A DNA stretch of 32,986 bases from Elusimicrobiota bacterium (GTDB lineage Bacteria; Elusimicrobiota; Elusimicrobia; Elusimicrobiales; UBA9959): assembly GCA_018829985.1 (NCBI GenBank), contig JAHJSU010000047.1, positions 1 to 32,986 of the forward strand, written 5' to 3'. The position numbers were made by a program, and so were the translations under genes. Of the stretch, positions 9,276-27,999 are shown piece by piece. Every line of letters begins with the position of its first letter. Position 1 is the stretch's first letter. The notes under the pieces were generated by a model that ran no database searches, had not been told where the DNA came from, and saw only the letters and a list, made by a program, of their open reading frames with translations.

Positions 9276-10499
9276 GTGCCGCTGTCCCTGTCGGCAGTGA
9301 CGGGCAGTCTGCCCGGCACGGCGGTATTATCCTGGGTAGCGCCCGGCGATAACGGCTCCGGCGGCTATCTGCTGAGCGGCTGGTTCGCGGTTCAAGCCTC
9401 CACCTGGTCCGGGGCGGACTTCTCCACCGCCGCGCCAGGCAATCTGACCATCTCCACCGCTGCAATAGCGGCGGGTTCCACCCAGAGCTACACGATAAGC
9501 GGGCTTGCTATGGGAACGACTTATTATTTCGCCGCGTGGGCCGCCGACGACGCGCTGAACTGGTCGCCGGTCTCAAGCACGGCCTCCGCCGTTTCGGGCG
9601 CGGCCAATACCGGCTCCATCTCCGGCACGGTCACGCAGGCCTCAACCCAGCCTATTGCGGGCGTAATAGTTGAGGCGTATGACGCTAATGATTTTGTGAG
9701 GGCCAGCGACAATACCGCAAGCGACGGAACTTATGAATTGAGCGGCCTCGATCTCGGAAAATATACTGTAAGGGCCACCTGGTCGGCAAACGATATCACA
9801 AGCGCGGTTTCCAAAAGCGATATAGACACCGGCGCGGGCGGGGTTAACTTCATGCTGAGTATAGCGTATGAGCTGGCCACGATTTCCGGGTATATACCGG
9901 CAGGGTTCATTCCCGATTCCTCGTATTACGCGCGCACCGCCGCTTCGGCGCGGTTCAGGCCGTCCGGGGAGGACGATAAAACGCCCTATGTGGAGCTTTT
10001 CCAGAAAGGCAGAAGGGTCGCGGCCGCGCCGGTGGATTCGGGCGGCAGGTTCCGTATCTCAAACCTGCTGCCGGGCACCTATTCCATACGGGTGTTCAAC
10101 GGCAGGGAATTTACCGATCTTACTCCGATAAAGCTTAAGGAAGGGGAAAACTTTAACTTTGTTCCGGAATGGAGCATTCTGAGCAAGGAAGCGGTCTACG
10201 CCTATCCCAACCCCGCCAGGACAGCGGTAAACATCCATTTTGAGACCAACCTGGCCAGCCAGTCCGATTTTGAGGCCGAGGTTTCGGTGTTTAATATCGC
10301 CGGCGGCCTTGTGAAGACTTTCCGGGCCGCCGACGTGAGCCCGGACACCGTAGCCGGGGGCGCGGGCTCCTATAAGGTCGCCTGGAATTTCTCCAATGAA
10401 AAGGTGGCTTCCGGCGTGTATCTGTATGTCGTAAGGCTTAAGTATATTTCCACCGGCAAAGTGGAGAAAGTGGTCAAAAAGCTGGCGATAATACGATAG
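9276..10499 (+). CDS. C-terminal part of the giant surface protein (carboxypeptidase-regulatory-like domains and a sorting-type tail)
   Basis: The coding frame is continuous with 5895-9041 and actually resumes at 9042. The GTG at 9276 falls inside a domain and has no ribosome-binding site, so this is a severed C-terminus rather than a separate gene. It holds one FN3 domain (residues 1-107), a carboxypeptidase-regulatory-like domain (GSISGTVTQ...TYELSGLDLGKYTVRA, about 112-170) and a second such domain (about 230-292). The end has YAYPNPARTAVNIHFETN and a final KVVKKLAIIR. Such YPNP-type C-terminal domains resemble T9SS type-A/FlgD-Ig tails, suggesting an exported anchored protein. Expression needs readthrough or a functional internal start. 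Confidence 0.65.
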   Translation: MPLSLSAVTGSLPGTAVLSWVAPGDNGSGGYLLSGWFAVQASTWSGADFSTAAPGNLTISTAAIAAGSTQSYTISGLAMGTTYYFAAWAADDALNWSPVSSTASAVSGAANTGSISGTVTQASTQPIAGVIVEAYDANDFVRASDNTASDGTYELSGLDLGKYTVRATWSANDITSAVSKSDIDTGAGGVNFMLSIAYELATISGYIPAGFIPDSSYYARTAASARFRPSGEDDKTPYVELFQKGRRVAAAPVDSGGRFRISNLLPGTYSIRVFNGREFTDLTPIKLKEGENFNFVPEWSILSKEAVYAYPNPARTAVNIHFETNLASQSDFEAEVSVFNIAGGLVKTFRAADVSPDTVAGGAGSYKVAWNFSNEKVASGVYLYVVRLKYISTGKVEKVVKKLAIIR

Positions 10500-12713: not shown

Positions 12714-13526
12714 TTATGAGGAAAGGTGGGCCAGCGCGCTTTTAAGGAATTGGACTCCCCGCCACCACCCGAGCGTCAGGCACGCCGCCGTTATGGGGGT
12801 AAAAAGCGCCGCTATAGTCCTGTTCCAGAACGGGTAGTTTTCATCCGCGAGCCGCAGCAGCGCGGCGGAAACGATAAGAAAAATCACGGGTGACAGCCAG
12901 AAATCCCGCGGGATCGCCGCAAGCAGGTTTTCCTTTGTCAGCGCGGCGGAGAGGACCACCGAGGAAGAGAGCGTCCACAGCAGGTAATTTGAGAGCAGGA
13001 AGATGGCGCCGGTAACCGATATGCTCATGGTGTACCTTTTGAACAGGAATAGTGAAAAAGCCAGCCCCGCCAGGCCGACCGGGACGAGCCATAAATAGAC
13101 CGTTATCGCGGCTTCATGCCGCCTGCAGAATTTAAACATCTTGTAGCGGAATTCGGAAAACGTCCGGAGCGCGTTCTGGGCCCCGCTCATGCCGCCGGCG
13201 GAGTCCGGCCCGGGCGCCCGGGCCAGCCGCTGCATCAGGGGATTGGCCTTGAATTCCACCTTGGGCATGGCGTCCAGCGCGATCTCCCGCTCTTCGGCGG
13301 GAAGGCCGGCGATTTCTTTTTTATAAGCCGCCTCCATGGCGGCCATTTGCGCGGTTATGTTGGGAAGGGCCGCCGGCTCCGCGGCATTTTCAGCGGAGGA
13401 CCCGGCGGCGCCGAAACCCGCGGGACTACGGGCGGCTTCCAGCTTCTCGCCCGTTATGCCCGGGATGTTCGCCGCGCCGGCGGCCAAAGCGGCCAGCAGC
13501 AGCAGTTTAAGCGGTCCCTTTAGCAT
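12714..13526 (-). CDS. Signal-peptide membrane protein with four C-terminal helices
   Basis: About 270 residues from the ATG at 13526 (MLKGPLKLLLLAAL), chosen over a longer frame because GAGGGTGGAG lies just upstream and because the longer version has no RBS. An N-terminal signal or anchor is followed by an Ala/Glu-rich extracytoplasmic stretch. Four hydrophobic segments then follow (starting YLWLVPVGLAG, VTGAIFLLSNYLL, WLSPVIFLIVSAAL and IAALFTPITAACL). It overlaps the P-II-like gene by 20 bp and is the last gene of the minus-strand motor cluster. No family recognised. By context it could be a membrane partner of the P-II-like protein. Confidence 0.65.
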   Translation of the reverse strand: MLKGPLKLLLLAALAAGAANIPGITGEKLEAARSPAGFGAAGSSAENAAEPAALPNITAQMAAMEAAYKKEIAGLPAEEREIALDAMPKVEFKANPLMQRLARAPGPDSAGGMSGAQNALRTFSEFRYKMFKFCRRHEAAITVYLWLVPVGLAGLAFSLFLFKRYTMSISVTGAIFLLSNYLLWTLSSSVVLSAALTKENLLAAIPRDFWLSPVIFLIVSAALLRLADENYPFWNRTIAALFTPITAACLTLGWWRGVQFLKSALAHLSS

Positions 13527-13842
13527 CTCCACCCTCGTAATATCCGACGACCCTGTCGATCGTCTGGACATAGGCGAAACCCCTGCCGGGTTTGTCCAGT
13601 TCCAGTTCCCCGACTATCGCCTCCATGATCTTGCCGGCGTTGTCTTTGCGCGCCGCTATCAGGATTATCTGCTTTTCGGCCTCTATGAAAAGCCCGAAAA
13701 TGTTCAGTTTCTGGCGCACGCCGGTGCCGCGCCCGTAAAAGCTGGTCACTCCCGGCGCTCCGGCCTTCAGAGCCGCGTCTATGGCCCGCTGACCGTCTTT
13801 TCTTTGCGTCACTACGGTTATCAGTTCCATCGTTCTGGCCAT
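13507..13842 (-). CDS. P-II-like signalling protein
   Basis: 111 residues with a GlnB-type ferredoxin-like fold pattern: MELITVVTQRKDGQRAIDAALKAG at the start, a short exposed loop around SFYGRGTGVRQKLNI, and a C-terminal GRGFAYVQTIDRVVGYY. P-II proteins are trimeric sensors of ATP/ADP and 2-oxoglutarate that regulate membrane transporters and enzymes. Here the T-loop is much shorter than in GlnB/GlnK and I see no uridylylation Tyr at the usual site, so it belongs to a divergent branch. The ATG at 13842 follows GGGGGT. It lies between the TPR gene (49 bp upstream) and the membrane protein (20-bp overlap), so all three are probably one transcript. The ligand is unknown. Confidence 0.7.
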   Translation of the reverse strand: MARTMELITVVTQRKDGQRAIDAALKAGAPGVTSFYGRGTGVRQKLNIFGLFIEAEKQIILIAARKDNAGKIMEAIVGELELDKPGRGFAYVQTIDRVVGYYEGGDAKGTA

Positions 13843-13891: not shown

Positions 13892-14773
13892 TTATATCTT
13901 GTTCAGGGCAGCTATATAATCCTTCAATTGCTGGTCTTCGGGCGAGATCTTCAGAGCTTTCTGCCAGGTGCGTTTGGCCTGCGCGTAATCTTTCAGCTGC
14001 AGATGCACCGAGCCGAGGCGTTTCAGGGCTGTAAAATCGCCGGGCTCAAGCCTTAACACGGATTGCAGTTCTTTTACGGCAAGATAAAATTTGGAGTCGT
14101 ATATGTAGTGCAGCGCCACGTCTTTCTTATGCTCTAGTATGCCCATGGTTGCCGGCTTTGTATCGTTCATTTTAATATCGGGCCTTTCGTCATCTATGAC
14201 CGCCAGCAGGCGGCTGAAGCGGGCTTCGCCGGGGGAAAGTTCACGGGAATATCTGAGCGAATCGTAGGTGAAGCGCAGGTCTTCCTTTTCGGTTATATAG
14301 GAAGCAAGCCCGTTCACGGCCAGAGTCCAGGATTTCGACCTGGACGGTTTTTCTTTCACTATGGCGTTCACTTTCTTAAGCCGCCGCTGGAGCTTGAGAA
14401 AAGCCGGGTTCGTGGCGTCGGTGGCAAGCAGTTCTTCCAGCTTAAGAAGCGCGTCGCCGTATCCGCCTTTGGCTATCAGTTTATAAAACTGGGGTTTCAC
14501 ATTGTCCGACGATTTTGAGAGCTTTTCCCTTGCGTCGGCTATCATGTTCCTGGCGGTTACCTGGCCGGGGTCGAGCTTGAGCGCCAGGTCCCACTGCTCT
14601 ATCGCTTTCTGATAGTTTTTGGCGCAGTAATATTCAAAAGCCGTGTCGTAATATTTTTCCAGCTGTTCGCTTTTGGCGTTTTCAGCCTGCTCCGGAGCCG
14701 CGAAAGCGGGCGGCCGCAAACCGGCCAAAATGAAACATGAAAATAAAAAAATAAATTTCATAATTTGATACAT
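13892..14773 (-). CDS. Secreted TPR-repeat protein
   Basis: About 293 residues from the ATG at 14773 (MYQIMKFIFLF), picked because AAGGAA lies seven bases upstream. The longer reading frame to 14851 runs into the CGCAGAG inverted repeat and is unlikely. A signal peptide (to about PPAFA) leads into TPR-like units near residues 40-75 (YYCAKNYQKAIEQWDLALKLDP) and at the C-terminus (LGSVHLQLKDYAQAKRTWQKALKISPEDQQ). Periplasmic location is predicted. It lies 244 bp downstream of the two motB-like genes. A role as a scaffold or partner of the motor is inferred from position only. Confidence 0.75.
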   Translation of the reverse strand: MYQIMKFIFLFSCFILAGLRPPAFAAPEQAENAKSEQLEKYYDTAFEYYCAKNYQKAIEQWDLALKLDPGQVTARNMIADAREKLSKSSDNVKPQFYKLIAKGGYGDALLKLEELLATDATNPAFLKLQRRLKKVNAIVKEKPSRSKSWTLAVNGLASYITEKEDLRFTYDSLRYSRELSPGEARFSRLLAVIDDERPDIKMNDTKPATMGILEHKKDVALHYIYDSKFYLAVKELQSVLRLEPGDFTALKRLGSVHLQLKDYAQAKRTWQKALKISPEDQQLKDYIAALNKI

Positions 14774-14791
14774 AGGAATTTCCTTTTTGCT

Positions 14792-14944
14792 TTTACCGCA
14801 GAGTCGCAGAGTACGCAGAGAAATCTTTCTCACACAAAGGCACAGAGCCACAAAGTTTCATTTTCCGGCATTTCTTCGCGCCTTCGCGTCTTTGTGTGAT
14901 CTTATTCTCAATCCTCTCTGCGTACTCTGCGACTCTGCGGTAAA
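14792..14944. repeat. 153-bp inverted repeat of CGCAGAG words
   Basis: Perfect 29-bp arms at 14792-14820 and 14916-14944 (TTTACCGCAGAGTCGC type), plus inner arms TCACACAAAG/CTTTGTGTGA (14830-14839 and 14890-14899). It sits between motB and the TPR gene and may split the cluster's transcript. Similar CGCAGAG words occur in many environmental bacterial genomes (from memory). Confidence 0.8.
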
Positions 14945-15017: not shown

Positions 15018-15656
15018 CTAAGACTCCCTGCCTTCTTCCCGCATGACTATTATTTCTATCCGCCTGTTCTTCGCCCTTTCCTCTTCCGTGGTGTTGGGCC
15101 CCACCGGGCGGAATTCGCCGTAACCGCAGGCCGTGAGCTTTTCCGGTGCCAGGCCCCGGAAGATAAGATAGTCGATAACCGAGAAAGCCCGCATAAGCGA
15201 AAGCTCCCTGTTTGACCGGAACTTGTGCCCCAGCATGCGGGCGGCGTCCGTATGGCCCTCCACCAGCACCGGGTTGTCCATGGTCTTGAGATTTTCGGCC
15301 ACGCTTTTTAAAAGGTCTTTCGCCCCTTCTTTCAAGGTCGCCGAGCCGGAATCAAAAAGCACGGGGGAGGCGAAGGTCAGCTTTATCCTGCTGGTGGTCA
15401 CTTCCACGCCCAGCTGGCCGTCCTGGATCTGCTTTTTGAGGTCTTCCTCCACTTTTTTCGTGAGGCCCATGTCTTTTATTTTTTTGTCCGCGTCCGCCGC
15501 TCCCAGCTCCTTCTGCATCAAGGCCATGGCCATTTCATAGTCCGATCTCTTCGTGTTGACGGAATACCCGTAAAGGGCAAGGAAAAGTATCACCAGCACG
15601 GACATAAGGTCCGCGAACGGTATCAGCCAGATCTGGCTGTTGTCTTTTTGGCTCAT
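15018..15656 (-). CDS. motB: MotB-like stator protein with the proton-channel Asp
   Basis: 212 residues. A single N-terminal helix carries PFADLMSVLVILFLALY, with Asp16 at the site of the essential proton-binding Asp of MotB. A periplasmic linker follows. The OmpA-type peptidoglycan-binding domain (about residues 85-207) includes VLFDSGSATLKEGA, VEGHTDAARM, GYGEFRPVGPN and NRRIEI. It overlaps the upstream second motB-like gene by four bases (ATGA), indicating tight coupling. In stators, five MotA surround two MotB. Here it is likely one half of a mixed MotB pair. No classical flagellar gene is nearby. Confidence 0.85.
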   Translation of the reverse strand: MSQKDNSQIWLIPFADLMSVLVILFLALYGYSVNTKRSDYEMAMALMQKELGAADADKKIKDMGLTKKVEEDLKKQIQDGQLGVEVTTSRIKLTFASPVLFDSGSATLKEGAKDLLKSVAENLKTMDNPVLVEGHTDAARMLGHKFRSNRELSLMRAFSVIDYLIFRGLAPEKLTACGYGEFRPVGPNTTEEERAKNRRIEIIVMREEGRES

Positions 15657-16327
15657 TTTCTCGCCACCACTATCTCTATCCGTCTGTTTCTTGCCCGTCC
15701 TTCCGGCGTGTCATTGGGGGCGACAGGGCGGTATTCCCCATAGGCCGCGGAGACAAGTTTTTCCTGGGGAATGCTGAAATTGGCCGCCAGATAATCCACC
15801 ACGGAATTCGCCCTGGCGGCTGAAAGAGCCCAGTTGGTCGGGTAATTGCCGCTTTTCACGGGGATATTGTCGGTATGCCCCTCTATAAGAATGTCGTGCT
15901 GGTTGAATTTTTCAAGAAGCTTGCCCATTACGGGGAGCACCTGAAGGGCGTTCGGCTCAAGTTCCGCCTTGCCCGATCTGAAAAGTATGGGGGCCGCGAT
16001 ATTTATGCGGATGAATTTATCGGTCAGCTGCACTTCGGCCAGGTCCCTTAAGCCGGTTTTCTGAAGCTCGGCCTTAAGCGTCGCGGCCGCGTCCTTCTCC
16101 TTAAATTTCTGCAGTATATCCCCGGCCTTCTTTTCTTTCAGCGACCCGCCGGCCACCTGCCTGTTAAGGCCTTCCACTAAACCGGCATTAACTTCCGGGC
16201 TGACGCTGGAAACATAGAGGATAAGGAAAAACAGCATCAGGTTGGTCATGATACAGGTGAGCACCAGCATCCAGAGGGGATTCTCCTCCTTCTTGTGTAT
16301 GGTGTATCTTTCAATAAAAAACTTCAT
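15653..16327 (-). CDS. MotB-like protein lacking the channel Asp
   Basis: 224 residues with one N-terminal helix (PLWMLVLTCIMTNLMLFFLILY, about 17-38) and an OmpA-type domain (about 100-222). The OmpA part has LFRSGKAELEPNA, IEGHTDNIPVKSGNYPTNWALSAARA, AYGEYRPVAPND and NRRIEIVV, very close to true MotB. Aligning FFL with MotB's MMAFFL puts Cys25 where MotB has its proton-binding Asp, and there is no other acidic residue in the helix. So it is probably unable to carry protons itself. ATGA overlaps with both motA (upstream) and the Asp-bearing motB (downstream) point to a mixed MotA-MotB-MotB' complex. Confidence 0.8.
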   Translation of the reverse strand: MKFFIERYTIHKKEENPLWMLVLTCIMTNLMLFFLILYVSSVSPEVNAGLVEGLNRQVAGGSLKEKKAGDILQKFKEKDAAATLKAELQKTGLRDLAEVQLTDKFIRINIAAPILFRSGKAELEPNALQVLPVMGKLLEKFNQHDILIEGHTDNIPVKSGNYPTNWALSAARANSVVDYLAANFSIPQEKLVSAAYGEYRPVAPNDTPEGRARNRRIEIVVARK

Positions 16328-17102: not shown

Positions 17103-17165
17103 TCCTCGTAAGTAAAGTAGGTAGGGGGGGCCGCTTTTTTTCCGACCTACTACATACTACCTACT
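17103..17165. repeat. GTAGGTAG/CTACCTAC inverted word array
   Basis: AAGTAGGTAGGGG on one side and CCTACTACATACTACC with TACTATCTACTG on the other form a loose hairpin between the hybrid gene and motA. The distal part encodes the last residues (SVDSR-stop) of the hybrid protein. Confidence 0.55.
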
Positions 17166-18962
17166 ATCTACTGATTTAGTCGCCGCAGGCGCCGGCGCCG
17201 CGGCCGTCACCGAAACAGAGTGCGTTCCGGACGAACAATCAGCCGCTGCAACGGCGAGAGCCGAACGGCACACCCGCACATAGATGGTGTCGCTGACCGT
17301 GCCGGGGTTCATGCTGACGACGAGCTGGCTCGCGCTGTTTATCGCGGGCGTCTTGCCGATTTTCCACGCGCCCGCGCCCCATTTGAATTGCACGATGTTG
17401 CCGCTTTGGAAGTTGCTGCCGGAGATGGTTAAATTCTGCGATGTGCCGTCGGCCGTCATCGCGGCCGGACTGATACCCGTCACCGCTGGAGCCGGTTTTT
17501 GGCCCGGCGCGGCGCCGGCCGGCGGTTTTCCAGGCGCGGAGGCCGCCTGGCCCGGGGTTAAGGCGGGCTTAACCGTTTTTGAAGCGGGCTGGGCTGTCCT
17601 GTCCAGCGTTAGAAAACCTTCATTTTTAAGCTTCTTTATCTCCATGACCAGCCTGAGGCGCTCCGCACGCTGAACTTCCGGCGGCATGGTCCTGGTGAGT
17701 TCCAGTTCCTGGCGGAATCTTTCCTGCATGCCTTCGGAAAGCTTGCTCGTGAAGATCTGCGCCACTTCAGAGCCTTTCATGGCCATTGCCAGGTTCTTCA
17801 TCGGCAGCCGCCTGGCCAGCATCTGGGCGTGCATGGGCTCCAGGTATTTTATGTCATTGAACCGCACGATAGCGTCCGACACCTTCCGGGAAAAAGCGGG
17901 GTTCTGGGCCGCCAGGGTCGTCACAGCTTTTTCCTGCATGGTTTCCGGCAGCTGTTCTATTATTTCCATGGTTTTGTCTTCGCTGCCTACCACATAATCC
18001 AGCGCGGAAAAAAGCTCGGCTTCCAGGGTTTTTACGGCGGCTTCCGGCATCAGGGTCACTTTGGGGAGGCCGGCGAGGGCCTCCACGCTTCTCGGATAGA
18101 GGGCTTCTATGAGGCCCGCCGAAACGGCTTTCGGGACGTAGCTTAAGACTATGGTAATTTCCTCCACTGATTTTGTCCGGAGGATAAAAGCCAGACTGGC
18201 CGTGTTCTCCCCGGTTATGAACCAGAAAGGCGTTTTTTTGCCCTGTTCGCCGCCGGAGGTCTCTTTTTTGGCCGAGGGCGCTTCGGGGCTCAGGGCCGCC
18301 GGCAGGGGGGCTTCGGCCGGCCTGCCGGACTCGGAAGACTGCGCGCTTAATTTCTCCCCGATTATGCTTACAAGGTTTTTTGTGGCGCCGGAAAGGGGAT
18401 TAAAAAATGTGCGCACGGTGACCAGGCCGAGCAGGGCTATAAGCGCTACCCACACCACGTTCCAGAGATTCGGCGGCACCAGCAGGTCGGCGGCGGAAAA
18501 AGGCGTTGTCTTTCTGAAATTCATCTTCTCGACGCTTATCAGGTCTTCCCGTTCAGCCGGCAGACCGAGCAGTCCGGAGGCCAGTTTTTTGGCCAGCTTG
18601 ACGTCTTCTTCCGGCAGATTCCTGTCCAGGATAAGGGTGGCGGATATTTTTTTAACCATGGTAAGCGAAGTGGACAAAGAGGCTTCTCCCACTTTTTCCT
18701 TTTGCGGGATGCCCGGCAGGAAGTCAAGGGCGGGTTTTTTCCGCGATTCTTCCTGCATGTCAGCCGAGATAATGACGATGATGTCGCTGGTTCCCAGCGC
18801 TTCCGAAAGCACCAGCTGCACCCTTTTTTCAAGCGAGCTTTCCAGCGCCAGCTTTGCTTCCAGCGAAGAATGCGTGGACGAGTCCGCGGCGCGCGCGCCG
18901 CAGTAAAGGAAAAAGAGCCCGAACGCCAGCGCTGCGGCCGAGGTTGTTAAAATCCTTTTCAT
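17157..18962 (-). CDS. FliF-FliG hybrid protein with a C-terminal IPT/TIG domain
   Basis: 601 residues. A signal or first membrane helix (1-25) leads to an extracytoplasmic FliF C-terminal-type region (about 42-150: SSLEKRVQLVLSEALG, ISATLILDRNLPEEDVKLAKKL, GLPAEREDLISVEKMNF). A second helix follows at 166-187. Residues 246-452 match FliG middle and C-terminal domains: FWFITGENTASLAFIL, VEEITIVLSYV, IEQLPETMQEKA, FNDIKYLEPMHAQMLARRL and NLAMAMKGSE. A Pro/Ala linker (455-490) then precedes an IPT/TIG-like domain (about 492-590). FliF builds the flagellar MS-ring and FliG is the rotor torque protein. The ring-building RBM1/2 and the FliG N-domain are absent. SD AAGGAG lies upstream of the ATG. 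First gene of the motor cluster. Confidence 0.8.
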   Translation of the reverse strand: MKRILTTSAAALAFGLFFLYCGARAADSSTHSSLEAKLALESSLEKRVQLVLSEALGTSDIIVIISADMQEESRKKPALDFLPGIPQKEKVGEASLSTSLTMVKKISATLILDRNLPEEDVKLAKKLASGLLGLPAEREDLISVEKMNFRKTTPFSAADLLVPPNLWNVVWVALIALLGLVTVRTFFNPLSGATKNLVSIIGEKLSAQSSESGRPAEAPLPAALSPEAPSAKKETSGGEQGKKTPFWFITGENTASLAFILRTKSVEEITIVLSYVPKAVSAGLIEALYPRSVEALAGLPKVTLMPEAAVKTLEAELFSALDYVVGSEDKTMEIIEQLPETMQEKAVTTLAAQNPAFSRKVSDAIVRFNDIKYLEPMHAQMLARRLPMKNLAMAMKGSEVAQIFTSKLSEGMQERFRQELELTRTMPPEVQRAERLRLVMEIKKLKNEGFLTLDRTAQPASKTVKPALTPGQAASAPGKPPAGAAPGQKPAPAVTGISPAAMTADGTSQNLTISGSNFQSGNIVQFKWGAGAWKIGKTPAINSASQLVVSMNPGTVSDTIYVRVCRSALAVAAADCSSGTHSVSVTAAAPAPAATKSVDSR

Positions 18963-19439: not shown

Positions 19440-19504
19440 TCTCAGTGACCGGCAAAACGACTGCCGATGTTTTAAAAGCCGGGACTACCGATAGGAGGAA
19501 TCAG

Positions 19505-20767
19505 ATGAGGAAAAAAATAGTCGGTTTGCTCGCGGGCGTTATGCTGGTAACGTCGGCATACGCGTTCGAAGGCGGCGTCACCTTCGACCAGAAAGGCAGC
19601 GTCACGCAGATTATCGAGCGGATAAAAGCGGATAATCCCGGCGCGGACGTCGTTGGGATGCCGGGCAATCCCAAGGCCGCGAAAAAATGGACCGTCATGG
19701 TGTTCGTCAACGCCAAGAATAATCTTGAATCATACGGCCTCAAGGATGTTAACGAGATGGAAATGGTCGGTTCCGACGCCGACGTCAATATCGTGGCCGA
19801 ACTGGGCCGCATAGCCGGCTATTCCTCCGCTGACGGAGACTGGAAAGGATCCAGAAGGTACCTTGTCGCCAAAGACAACGACACCTCCAAGCTCACTTCC
19901 CCGGTTTTGATGGAAATCGCCAAGTCGGACATGGGCAGCTGGAAATACCTGGTCGAATTCACCCAATGGGCCATGGAAAAATTCCCGGCACAACATTACG
20001 CGCTGGTGGTATGGAATCACGGCTCGGGCTGGAACAAGGACCTCGCTTTTGAATCCGAAAAAGGCCTCTCCTACGACGACGAGACGGGGAACCATATGAC
20101 GACCCCGCAACTGAGACAGGCGATGGAACAGATCGGCAAAATAGATATCTTCGCGATGGACGCCTGCCTGATGCAGATGGTGGAAGTCGGCTATGAGATA
20201 CGCAGTTATACCGACTATGTCGTTGCCTCCGAAGAGACCGAGCCCGCCGACGGCTATACCTACAATACCTGGCTGGCGCCGCTTGCCGCCAAACCCGGTA
20301 TGACCGGCGCCGAGCTTTCAAAAGCCATGGTCGATTCCTACACCGACCATTACCAGGGCATCAATCGGGCGGGCGTCCATTCCGCCATAAAGGCAGCCTC
20401 TTTCGGGAAGTTCGCCGCCCTGCTGGACGCGTGGACAGCGGAAGTAATGGCCGCCGACGACCTCGTCAATGTCAAGAACGCCAGGACCAAGGCCCAGGCT
20501 TTCTATTACTCCAGCAATAAGGACATATATCATTTCGTGAAGCTCGTCAGCGAAGCCACCGCCGCCCCGGCGGTCGCGCAGAAAGGCAAAGAGCTGATGG
20601 ATTTCCTGAAAACCGACCTGATACTTTATAACCGGGTTTTCGGCGCCAAGTACGCCAATGCCTCCGGCCTCGCCATTTATATTCCCGGCTACTATCCTTC
20701 TTCATATGACAGCCTGCTTTGGGCCTCGGAATCAAAATGGGATGACTTTGTGAAGTGGATAAAATAG
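19505..20767 (+). CDS. Clostripain-family (C11) secreted cysteine peptidase
   Basis: 420 residues from the ATG at 19505, chosen for the AGGAGG six bases upstream. A longer frame from 19445 would precede the signal peptide. The signal peptide ends near SAYA (residue 20). The catalytic pair of family C11 is visible: His172 in VVWNHGSGW and Cys221 in MDACLMQMVE. An ASEETEPADGYTY substrate-pocket region follows. Clostripains cleave after Arg or Lys and are often autoprocessed. It is a single-gene unit: its own promoter upstream and a strong terminator 22 bp after the stop. Role in exoprotein degradation or surface processing is inferred. Confidence 0.88.
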   Translation: MRKKIVGLLAGVMLVTSAYAFEGGVTFDQKGSVTQIIERIKADNPGADVVGMPGNPKAAKKWTVMVFVNAKNNLESYGLKDVNEMEMVGSDADVNIVAELGRIAGYSSADGDWKGSRRYLVAKDNDTSKLTSPVLMEIAKSDMGSWKYLVEFTQWAMEKFPAQHYALVVWNHGSGWNKDLAFESEKGLSYDDETGNHMTTPQLRQAMEQIGKIDIFAMDACLMQMVEVGYEIRSYTDYVVASEETEPADGYTYNTWLAPLAAKPGMTGAELSKAMVDSYTDHYQGINRAGVHSAIKAASFGKFAALLDAWTAEVMAADDLVNVKNARTKAQAFYYSSNKDIYHFVKLVSEATAAPAVAQKGKELMDFLKTDLILYNRVFGAKYANASGLAIYIPGYYPSSYDSLLWASESKWDDFVKWIK

Positions 20768-21069: not shown

Positions 21070-22164
21070 ATGACAGACCGGCGGAAAAACAGCGGTTTTG
21101 GGAAGCGGGCCCCGCACTTTGTTTTTTTCAGAAAAAGTGCGGGGCGGGCTTCGCTTTGGGCCGCGCTGTTCCTCGCTTTTTTCAGCGGGGACCTCCGGGC
21201 CTCTTCCGAGACGGGCACGACGGCTGCAAATTTTCTCAAGATCCCGGTGGCGGTCATCCCTTCCGCCATGGGCGAAGCGTATACCGCCATGGTGGGTCCC
21301 GATTCCATACTGTATAATCCCGCCGGCCTGGGGCTCCTTAGCTATCCTTCTTTTTCCGGAAGCCACAACCAGTATCTGGAGGGGATAACCCAGGAATACG
21401 CGGCCCTCACCTACCGTTCCAAATACGGCACTTTCGGCTTCGGTTTTTCGATGCTCACCAGCGGCGAGATAACCGCCTACGACGGCAACGATATGAACAT
21501 AGGCCATACCAGCACCAATCATCGCTTCGTGATGCTTTCCTACGCCCAGTCCTGGCCGCATTTCGACGCCGACATAGGAAAGCTCGACCCCATGCTTATC
21601 ACGCCCAGCTGGACCAGGGTGGAGCCGGTAATAGATTACCGTCCTAAAGCCTACCGGATCGCGCTGGGGGCCAGCATAAAGCAGGTAGGCGAAAAGCTTG
21701 CCGATCAGAAATCAACGGCTTACTCGTTTGACGCCGGGGCGCTGGCGGTGCTGCCCGCCCATGTCCAGATCGGAGTTTCGGTCCTTAATTTCTCAGGCAG
21801 GCAGAAATTTGCGGACGAGACCTACGATCTGCCGCGGGTTTTGCGCGCCGGGATAGCCAAGGATTTCCACACCATAAACGACATCATGATATTCAAGACG
21901 GCGGCCGACGTGGTGAAGTATTCCGACTACGGTTTTTTCGGCTGTATCGGGTTTGAAACCGATGTTATGAGGGTATTCCAGCTCAGAATAGGGTATAAAA
22001 CACAAAGGGACACGGGCTCGCGCATCAGCGGGGGCTTCGGCATGAACTTTGACAGTTTTACCGAAAAAGAAAACATCATCCACGGCGTCAGGGTGGATTA
22101 CGCCTATCTTGATTACGGGAATCTCGGCGCCACCCACCGTCTGGGCCTGCAGCTGATCTGGTAA
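21070..22164 (+). CDS. PorV/PorQ-family outer-membrane protein
   Basis: 364 residues. A long N-region and signal peptide (SLWAALFLAFFSGDLRAS) end around residue 46. The mature start, TGTTAANFLKIPVAVIPSAM, then GEAYTAMVGPDSILYNPAGL, is the hallmark of PorV/PorQ (UPF0164) proteins. These are FadL-like barrels, of which PorV is a type-IX secretion shuttle component. The barrel strands continue to LGLQLIW. The YPNP-type tail on the giant surface protein makes a T9SS-like link possible, but no other Por gene is visible. Immediate upstream DNA is a MITE-like element; a promoter lies beyond it. Confidence 0.8.
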   Translation: MTDRRKNSGFGKRAPHFVFFRKSAGRASLWAALFLAFFSGDLRASSETGTTAANFLKIPVAVIPSAMGEAYTAMVGPDSILYNPAGLGLLSYPSFSGSHNQYLEGITQEYAALTYRSKYGTFGFGFSMLTSGEITAYDGNDMNIGHTSTNHRFVMLSYAQSWPHFDADIGKLDPMLITPSWTRVEPVIDYRPKAYRIALGASIKQVGEKLADQKSTAYSFDAGALAVLPAHVQIGVSVLNFSGRQKFADETYDLPRVLRAGIAKDFHTINDIMIFKTAADVVKYSDYGFFGCIGFETDVMRVFQLRIGYKTQRDTGSRISGGFGMNFDSFTEKENIIHGVRVDYAYLDYGNLGATHRLGLQLIW

Positions 22165-26160: not shown

Positions 26161-26181
26161 AGGGATGAAGGATGAGGGATG
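26161..26181. repeat. GGATGAA heptamer, three copies
   Basis: GGATGAAGGATGAGGGATGA straddles the start of the next gene. Confidence 0.55.
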
Positions 26182-26510
26182 AAAAAAGTTTAAGGGGAAA
26201 TTTCTTGAATAAGGGAACGCCGGCGGTATTTACGGCCGCCGCTGTCGCGGCCGTAAACGTCTGCGCCGCGGCCCTGATCGCTTTCTACCCGCCCCCCGAA
26301 ACTTTCGGCAAGCTTATCCCCGTCGATAATCCCCGGGTCCGGGACGGCAGGTTCCGGGCCCCCGTCTGCAACGGCGTTCAATGCACTCTCTGCCCGTTCA
26401 AATGCTTTCTGCCCGAGGGCGCGCGCGGCCGCTGCAAGGCGCGGATAAACTACGGCGGGCGCATAAAAACGCTCGTTCACGTAAATGGCGCTGCTGAGAA
26501 AATCTATTAA
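26172..26510 (+). CDS. Membrane-anchored N-terminal remnant of the AmmeMemoRadiSam radical SAM enzyme
   Basis: 112 residues. An N-terminal hydrophobic helix (about 17-38: AVFTAAAVAAVNVCAAALIAF) is followed by VQCTLCPFKCFLPEGARGRCKARINYGG (around residues 69-96). Its CxxCxxxC plus later Cys cluster and GRCKxRxN are typical of the first 60 or so residues of full AmmeMemoRadiSam radical SAM proteins (amrS/TIGR04337-like). The frame then ends; the radical SAM core is absent because the Memo gene begins right after the stop. It may be a deletion remnant or a real stand-alone cysteine-cluster protein. TTG 26205 after AGGGGAAAT is an alternative start. Confidence 0.6.
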   Translation: MRDEKSLRGNFLNKGTPAVFTAAAVAAVNVCAAALIAFYPPPETFGKLIPVDNPRVRDGRFRAPVCNGVQCTLCPFKCFLPEGARGRCKARINYGGRIKTLVHVNGAAEKIY

Positions 26511-26511
26511 A

Positions 26512-27999
26512 ATGAAAATAAAAAAACACAGGCATGCAGGTGCATTATTCTTGTTGATTTTGTCTTCTGCTGTTTTTAGCGTGGAAGCGCGGGAGATGAT
26601 GTTTGCCGGGAAGTTCTATCCGGCGGATAAGGAAGAACTTGCCGGGTTCGTGGATTCCGCTTTGGCCAAAGCCGCCGTCCCAAAACTCGGTGGTGCGGTC
26701 CTGGCCGTTATCGCTCCGCACGCCGGTTATCCTTTTTCCGGACGGATCGCCGGCTACGCCTATAAAGCCATAGGCGACGAATACGATACCGTCGTAATAC
26801 TGTCCGCCGGCCATACCATGTCCGTCAAAGGGGCCGCCATTGTAAAGGACGGTTTCTTTGAAACGCCGCTCGGCAAAGTTCCCGTGGATAAAAAACTGGC
26901 CGGCGAACTTATCAAGACCTGCCCGCTTTTTGAGAATAATTCCGCCGCCCACGCCAACGAACACGCGGTGGAAGTCCAGCTGCCGTTCCTCCAGCGGAGG
27001 CTCAAAAAGCCGTTCAAGCTTCTGCCCGCCGTCCTGAACACGGAAAATATAGGCGATCTCGTCAAGATCGGCGAGACCCTGGGCCGAAAACTTAAAGGCA
27101 GAAAAGCGCTTATAGTCGTCTCCGCCGACTTTTCCCATTATCCCGATCATAGCTACGCTAAAAGAGTGGATGAAACCCTCGGCCTTGCGATAAAAATGAT
27201 GAATCCGGAATATTTCCGGCTGGCCAACAGGATACTGCTCAACAAGGGAATACCGGAACTCGCAACCTGCGCCTGCGGCGAAGCGGCGATCACGGCCGCG
27301 ATGGCCGCCGTAAACACGCTTGGTCCCGCGCAATTTCTGGAGCTCAAATACGCCGATTCCTACGATGAGTACCCCCAACAGTCGTCTCCCGACCGGGTGG
27401 TGGGCTATATGGCCGGAGTTTTTCTCAAAAGCGAAAAAGCCGCCGCCGGCAAGGTCGTACTGAACGACGGGCAAAAAAAAGAACTTTTGAAAGAAGCCAG
27501 GACGGAAATTAAAAATCGGCTTTTGGAAATAAAACCAAAACGGGACCGGCTATCCGCAGATTATGCGTTCAACCTGCCCGGCGCGGTTTTTGTAACGCTT
27601 ACCGGGGGCGGCGATTTGCGCGGCTGCGTCGGCACTATTGAGCCGCGCATGACGCTGCTTGACGCCGTGCGCTACGGCGCTCTGTCCGCCGCGTTCGAGG
27701 ACAGGCGCTTTAAGCCTGTGGGAAAAGGGGAGCTTGAAAAACTGAAGATCGAAATATCCATCCTGTCCCCGCTTAAAAAAATAGCCGGCGCCAAAGGGAT
27801 AATCCCGCATAAGCATGGCGTGGTTATTGTCAGGGACGGACGTTCCGGATTGTTCCTGCCCCAGGTCTGGGAGCAGATACCGGGCAAAGAAGATTTTTTA
27901 AGCGGGCTGTGCTCGCAAAAAGCGGGTCTTGAGCGCGGCTGCTGGCGGGATAAAAAAACCGGGATTTACGTCTTCACCGTAGACGCCTTTCAGGAATAA
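26512..27999 (+). CDS. amrB: Secreted AmmeMemoRadiSam protein B-protein A (Memo-AMMECR1) fusion
   Basis: 495 residues from the ATG at 26512, which opens a clean signal peptide (MKIKKHRHAGALFLLILSSAVFSVEA). The Memo domain (about 25-290) starts at MMFAGKFYPAD. It contains APHAGYPFSGRIAGYAY, NEHAVEVQLPFLQ and SADFSHYPDHSYAKRVDE, the His/Asp-rich sites of class III-dioxygenase-like Memo. The AMMECR1 domain (about 310-494) has GDLRGCVGT, AAFEDRRF and KIEISILSPL. The usual third member, the radical SAM enzyme, is present only as a short fragment upstream. The biochemical role of the trio is unknown. Export to the periplasm is an interesting deviation. Confidence 0.88.
   Translation: MKIKKHRHAGALFLLILSSAVFSVEAREMMFAGKFYPADKEELAGFVDSALAKAAVPKLGGAVLAVIAPHAGYPFSGRIAGYAYKAIGDEYDTVVILSAGHTMSVKGAAIVKDGFFETPLGKVPVDKKLAGELIKTCPLFENNSAAHANEHAVEVQLPFLQRRLKKPFKLLPAVLNTENIGDLVKIGETLGRKLKGRKALIVVSADFSHYPDHSYAKRVDETLGLAIKMMNPEYFRLANRILLNKGIPELATCACGEAAITAAMAAVNTLGPAQFLELKYADSYDEYPQQSSPDRVVGYMAGVFLKSEKAAAGKVVLNDGQKKELLKEARTEIKNRLLEIKPKRDRLSADYAFNLPGAVFVTLTGGGDLRGCVGTIEPRMTLLDAVRYGALSAAFEDRRFKPVGKGELEKLKIEISILSPLKKIAGAKGIIPHKHGVVIVRDGRSGLFLPQVWEQIPGKEDFLSGLCSQKAGLERGCWRDKKTGIYVFTVDAFQE

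Follow-up and report, generated by a model that had tools for sequence, protein, structure and literature searches.

Architecture of the fusion protein

What might the rotor of a flagellar motor do in a genome in which genes for flagellar export and switching were not found? The question is raised by a gene on contig JAHJSU010000047.1 of an Elusimicrobiota bacterium (assembly GCA_018829985.1), of which the whole stretch of 32,986 nucleotides (positions 1 to 32,986, called the window here) was analysed. A single uninterrupted open reading frame on the minus strand (17157-18962) codes for a protein of 601 amino acids (aa) joining a part of FliF to a part of FliG, and the plus strand contains many stops across the same interval. 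We consider it probable that this fusion is the rotor of a minimal machine that is export-less, non-switching and driven by MotAB, and that it most likely moves surface adhesins. The rotor-stator part of this proposal is well supported: the analysis shows the domain content, the co-location, conservation and distribution of the parts and the absence of the tested flagellar genes. Ring formation, rotation, driving by ions, MotB heterodimers and the output of the machine are what we infer.

The protein consists of a hydrophobic helix, the RBM3 domain of FliF, a second membrane helix, a disordered linker, the middle (M) and C domains of FliG, a Pro/Ala-rich linker and a TIG-like domain, in this order (Table 1). 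An earlier note, made from the sequence alone, had proposed a FliF/FliG fusion with the second membrane helix, and both flagellar halves were supported by profile searches, AlphaFold (AF2) and Foldseek. Pfam recognised FliG_C at 2.3e-12 over residues 349-452, and residues 244-454 matched the solved M+C structure of T. maritima FliG (3ajc) at 1.3e-12 in a PDB sequence search, which bears out the FliG assignment of residues 246-452 on which that note had staked its reading. With the single sequence, FliF_C (0.025) and FliG_M (0.076) stayed below the Pfam cut-offs, and the RBM3 part alone retrieved no match as a PDB sequence query. The FliF chains were recovered only by a profile built from 24 family members, which matched FliG at 4e-65 and FliF across the RBM3 part at 3.5e-9 to 1.5e-8, its fourth-best PDB match being an engineered FliF-FliG fusion. 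Foldseek searches with the AF2 model returned FliG M+C structures first (1.4e-8 and down), followed by FliF S-ring structures with a probability of 1.00. The RBM3 domain was modelled with high confidence in the order alpha-beta-beta-alpha-beta, and the true FliF proteins of G032 and G216, both of them flagellated Elusimicrobiota, align with their RBM3 and second membrane helix onto the N-terminal half of the family.

The missing parts were established in the same way. Pfam and the AF2 model place RBM3 alone in the approximately 140 residues preceding the second membrane helix, and RBM1 and RBM2 are absent; FliG_N gave no Pfam match, and the order RBM3, membrane helix, linker and FliG M leaves no space for it in the model. 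The claim that the ring domains are lacking thus holds for RBM1 and RBM2, as does the claim that FliG-N is missing, but it fails for RBM3. Because RBM3 is present, a ring surface is kept and only the RBM1/RBM2 part is missing. The further statement that the MS-ring assembly surface is absent was an interpretation for which we found no support. As previously noted, the charges of the torque helix (LDDRxIQxxLRE type) are kept in part: T. maritima LDDRSIQLVLRE aligns with LEPMHAQMLARR of the window protein, in which the Arg is retained and DD is replaced by EP. The NCBI equivalog cut-off for fliG (226.7 bits) was reached neither by the window protein (31.2) nor by its type A paralogue (101.1; see below for the types).

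Stator genes downstream of the fusion

The fusion gene is followed by genes for MotA, MotB1 and MotB2 in a single overlapping run, with 4-nt overlaps between MotA and MotB1 and between MotB1 and MotB2. The earlier note overlooked these genes, as well as the missing export and switch genes, the phylum-wide distribution and the PorV- and type-IX-like neighbours. MotA matches the flagellar motor protein PRK09109 over residues 1-245 (1.7e-58) and is of the flagellar stator type, not ExbB-sized. The ion-binding Asp is present in MotB2 and replaced by Cys in MotB1. Precisely one of two tandem MotB copies is without this Asp in five loci (the window, L083, L106, L111 and L112), and never both, the replacing residue being Cys, Gly or Asn; the L106 copies, both missed by the motif scan, were read by eye. 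This pattern of one-of-two loss in the sequences suggests that MotB1 and MotB2 form heterodimers. The arrangement recurs elsewhere, with MotA in 70 and MotB in 72 of the 88 fusion loci with room downstream, on the same strand and within 7 kb.

Table 1. Features of the fusion gene and its surroundings in the window.
Feature	Position	Strand	Evidence
Protein with C-terminal type IX type-A sorting domain	9276..10499	+	TIGR04183 34.2 bits (cut-off 23); Por_Secre_tail 4e-8
TPR protein, end of operon; same place in members of the same family	13892..14851	-	TPR_2 2.6e-13; synteny
MotB2: MotB-type membrane helix with Asp retained, OmpA domain	15018..15656	-	OmpA 1.8e-17; MotB_plug 7.9e-7; motif WLIPFADLMS
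MotB1: MotB-type membrane helix with Asp to Cys, OmpA peptidoglycan-binding domain	15653..16327	-	OmpA 9.8e-20; motif WMLVLTCIMT
MotA, full-length flagellar-type stator subunit, 256 aa	16324..17094	-	MotA_ExbB 2.7e-25; PRK09109 1.7e-58
FliF(RBM3)-membrane helix-FliG(M+C) fusion with TIG-like tail, 601 aa	17157..18962	-	Open reading frame, Pfam, PDB sequence searches, AF2, Foldseek
TIG/IPT-like immunoglobulin (Ig) domain, residues 492-561, private to the window gene	17280..17489	-	TIG 2.5e-4; NF058597 9.3e-8; 7-strand model
FliG C domain, degenerate torque helix, residues 349-452	17607..17918	-	FliG_C 2.3e-12 (Pfam), 3.9e-13 (genome search)
FliG middle domain, residues about 246-326	17985..18227	-	phmmer to 3ajc/1lkv over residues 244-454; Foldseek
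Second membrane helix, residues 163-190	18393..18476	-	Hydrophobic stretch; AF2 helix 163-209
FliF RBM3 (S-ring) domain, shortened beta-collar, residues 30-147; predicted periplasmic	18522..18875	-	AF2 model, Foldseek, profile, alignment
N-terminal hydrophobic helix, residues 2-22; signal peptide or first membrane helix	18897..18959	-	Sequence; AF2 helix 2-22
Clostripain-family (C11) protease, divergent neighbour	19445..20767	+	Peptidase_C11 1.7e-50; synteny
PorV/PorQ-family outer-membrane protein, divergent, two genes away	21070..22164	+	NF033709 93.2 bits (cut-off 90); recurrent in family f1

Distribution of the fusion and absence of flagellar genes

Among 248 Elusimicrobiota genomes, FliG_C was found in 92 and FlhA in 3. 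At least one of the 92 (G032) holds just a normal flagellar FliG, not all hits having been read fully; most of the open frames are 480-730 aa long, and there are up to eight copies per genome. Four of the fusions are encoded in the genome of the window, along with six MotA/ExbB proteins; searches of it for FlhA, FliM and FliN found none. FlhA was likewise not found in any of 13 named genomes with a fusion, one of which is the complete chromosome CP096137.1, and FliM/FliN were not found in the window's genome, a congener, G225 and CP096137.1, while the same searches detected the flagellated genomes G032 and G216 as positive controls. On the complete chromosome, a single fusion gene is followed by MotA and MotB. 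In G216, a true flagellar FliF and FliG pair encoded by overlapping genes (L116, contig C78) stands alongside a 640-aa fusion (L016, contig C132); the two are therefore different, coexisting systems. Elusimicrobia were previously described as clearly without flagellar genes (PMC7031533). Taken together, the fusion with MotAB is common to many flagellum-less Elusimicrobiota, in which the "flagellar" motor probably has another job at the cell surface.

In phylogenetic trees, which mostly match the families of the phylum, the fusions of type A (about 650 aa) form one supported clade across many families, and the window type together with the type of other classes forms a second group with weaker support (93/93); two further fusions of the window's genome (contigs C323 and C277) are long branches of unsure placement, and the root is unsettled. 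One scan of the genome_contigs collection matched Elusimicrobiota and a few records titled "bacterium", which leaves room for fusions elsewhere, and among the matches listed from a plasmid collection only the FliG part was covered.

Neighbouring genes and type IX secretion

Three types of operon were distinguished. Type A comprises genes for a large protein bearing a C-terminal domain (CTD), a PorV/PorQ-family protein with TPRs, the fusion, a cytoplasmic coiled-coil protein, MotA and MotB; type B comprises a large protein, a PorV/PorP-like protein with TPRs, the fusion, MotA, MotB2 and MotB1; and the window type comprises the fusion, MotA, MotB1, MotB2 and a TPR protein, with the PorV-family gene nearby. 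The large proteins have C-termini like FlgD_ig or those of type IX secretion systems (T9SS), weak by curated cut-offs and similar by eye. A PorV-like outer-membrane gene lies upstream of the fusion in 61 of 91 loci. In the window itself, the associated PorV/PorQ-family gene is a candidate member of the machine by gene proximity, and the protein with the type-A sorting domain is likely surface cargo.

A SprA/Sov-like translocon was found in 213 of the 248 genomes, including the window's own (G000, C144:549-5678) and every other fusion-bearing one save G225. Members of the search model matched TIGR04189 at 1e-33 to 1e-39, below the equivalog cut-off. These SprA/Sov-like proteins, among them those of G000 and of L211, L212, L213 and L214, are about 1,770 aa long, and Pfam SprA_N misses most of them. 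On these matches, the data suggest a phylum-wide type-IX-like secretion system in Elusimicrobiota. In family f2, SprA was present in 64 genomes and FliG_C in one; in family f12, FliG_C was present in none. The genomes of both families are mostly small (about 0.5-2.4 Mb), and we presume them to be host-associated.

Some further genes were noted. In several genomes of the window's family (f1), the clostripain-family protease gene and the fusion are divergently oriented. A gene for a P-II-like small protein (13507-13842), followed by one for a membrane protein (12714-13571), lies beyond the TPR gene; the pair also occurs in G045 (L078), detached there from the TPR end of the operon, and is therefore no fixed part of it. 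Directly 3' of the C277 fusion, a coiled-coil protein with a histidine-kinase-like ATPase end (L013:11668-13695; HATPase_c 1.1e-15) is encoded, which may possibly control the motor. By inspection, a short Cys-rich open frame at 26172-26510 looks like a cut-off radical-SAM protein and is followed by a MEMO1-AMMECR1-like fusion at 26485-27999, so that the two resemble a broken AmmeMemoRadiSam set.

The TIG-like tail

The TIG/IPT-like tail had been recognised before, and its Pfam match over residues 492-561 (2.5e-4) is marginally past the cut-off; its best curated match was the surface-protein repeat NF058597 (9.3e-8, over cut-off), and the predicted model has 7 strands. Because the tail is in frame, has a normal coding G+C content at third codon positions like the rest of the gene, and is followed by a MotA gene with its own ribosome-binding site, we rejected the idea that it is a separate, frameshifted gene. 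An assembly chimera is unlikely as well, as synteny continues through the tail to MotA. The tail is known from one metagenome contig: no other family member examined has one, and no relative was found among the fusion loci collected or among plasmids. In the orthologues of the same family (about 20 genomes with a readable end), 17 to 126 Pro/Ala-rich residues and no Ig-like domain follow the FliG core, and the type A paralogues carry TPRs in its place. In the sister genome G214 (87% identical), the contig stops 11 residues past the core, before any tail. With two hydrophobic helices, FliG and the tail both come to lie in the cytoplasm, and the suspected topology conflict is therefore weak; Ig-like folds of the TIG class are also found intracellularly, and a weak Foldseek match was obtained to the Rel domain of NFAT1. 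We read the tail as a recent local addition, located in the cytoplasm, which, being confined to the window gene, does not explain the system.

A proposed machine and its alternatives

In flagella, RBM3 builds the S-ring, and the lower part of the MS-ring, beside the export apparatus, consists of RBM1 and RBM2. This export-side part is absent here along with the tested export gene FlhA, while RBM3, the torque half of FliG and a flagellar-type stator are all kept, which is most simply read as a rotor reduced to its ring and torque parts. The FliF RBM3 would form an S-ring-like periplasmic ring, one membrane helix would span the inner membrane, and FliG M+C would face the stator on the cytoplasmic side, with the covalent link substituting for the joint between the FliF tail and FliG-N. 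The stator would consist of the co-encoded MotA, MotB1 and MotB2, probably with MotB1/MotB2 heterodimers fixed to the peptidoglycan by their OmpA domains. Because FliM/FliN are absent, no flagellum-like switching is expected. Torque may then be passed outwards, to outer-membrane proteins (PorV/PorQ-like, with TPRs) and to large surface proteins. The output, which is the weakest step, would most likely be adhesin movement (gliding), or otherwise the driving of type-IX-like surface traffic. In Flavobacterium, the adhesin SprB is both moved and secreted by means of an ion-driven motor (PMC8986121), a direction in which the neighbours of the fusion also point. In a more far-reaching version, to which we give somewhat less than an even chance, the fusions represent a separate rotary class, in which an export-less S-ring/FliG rotor with a heteromeric MotA/MotB1/MotB2 stator drives PorV-like proteins and type-IX-like adhesins for gliding or powered secretion, each cell having several paralogous versions.

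Several observations weigh against the proposed motor. The stator genes are not adjacent at every fusion locus, and co-location does not equal interaction; the torque-helix charges are lost in part; by our reading of the alignment, the window MotA has Ala at the E98 position; the Foldseek match of RBM3 is just at E about 2e-3; and about 122 genomes, including 63 of the 64 of family f2, are SprA-positive without FliG_C.

This last observation also bears on the most credible of the alternatives, namely that the fusion with MotAB powers type-IX-like secretion as a putative replacement of GldL/GldM. PorV/PorQ-family proteins and T9SS-type C-termini adjoin the fusion, the translocon is encoded in nearly every fusion-bearing genome, and the Flavobacterium proton motor serves secretion and adhesin motion alike (PMC8986121). 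However, secretion in the approximately 122 genomes must run fusion-free, which weakens the case for the fusion as the sole type IX motor and means that it is not an obligatory energiser of the process. Its loss in the putatively host-associated families f2 and f12 would be a better fit to a motility or surface-living trait than to a core secretion motor, and we regard this alternative as unlikely. We give slightly less credit to a non-rotary or static envelope complex of stator and fusion, such as a scaffold, a cell-shape device or a force transducer of the Tol/Ton type. The partial loss of torque charges would agree with it, and the TPR extensions and signal-peptide-less coiled-coil proteins of type A operons suggest scaffolding, but the joint, phylum-wide retention of RBM3, FliG M+C and flagellar-type MotA in several paralogues is what is expected of a rotor and its stator. 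A decaying relic of a lost flagellum, to which the true flagellar genes in a few phylum members might point, was rejected as hardly credible in view of up to eight FliG_C copies per genome with intact frames, by strong operon conservation with paralogue types that mostly track the families, and by coexistence with the flagellar gene set in G216.

The proposed motor would offer a concrete, conserved case of a rotor-stator pair freed from export and switching, and with it a minimal system in which the requirements of a FliG-MotA motor could be studied. For the history of the flagellar motor, it is relevant to the choice between an origin from a simpler rotary device and a later repurposing. It also suggests that a phylum of which very few members have been cultured may possess a machine for motility or secretion.

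Comparison with known systems

With the flagellar FliF, FliG and MotAB, the Elusimicrobiota system has in common RBM3, the second membrane helix, FliG M+C, a full-length MotA and a MotB with an OmpA domain. In contrast to the flagellum, its rotor is one chain lacking RBM1/RBM2 and FliG-N, its neighbours are PorV-like and type-IX-like, and FliM/FliN and FlhA are missing from the genomes tested other than the flagellated controls. It shares with the GldLM system of Bacteroidota an ion-driven inner-membrane motor (here predicted), PorV/SprA-like outer-membrane parts and large CTD-bearing surface proteins, yet we know of no FliF/FliG rotor in that type IX and gliding system. The AglRQS gliding motor of Myxococcus has a MotAB-like stator that moves surface adhesion sites and a cytoplasmic coiled-coil partner, and to our knowledge it also has no FliG rotor.

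We found no publication on this Elusimicrobiota fusion family in the open-licence literature without preprints, so that an earlier description is possible. According to a survey from 2025, 11% of non-motile species have rotor proteins in the absence of filament proteins, and the authors considered another function for them possible (PMC12199754). A natural fusion is already known from the non-flagellated Chlamydiaceae, in which FliF is joined to the FliG middle region (Bergeron 2016, PMC4768692). It contains the complementary piece of FliF, whereas the fusion described here keeps RBM3 and is without RBM1/2; it is also accompanied by FlhA and an injectisome, and MotAB are not among the flagellar genes listed there (FliF, FliL and FlhA; PMC4768692). 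Engineered fusions are covalent likewise, but man-made and placed in a full flagellar context: an S-ring FliF-FliG fusion of Vibrio forms a ring (PMC11481574), and with the artificial FliF-FliG fusions of Salmonella, assembly and rotation still take place (cited in PMC4768692), so that joining the two proteins is in itself no hindrance.
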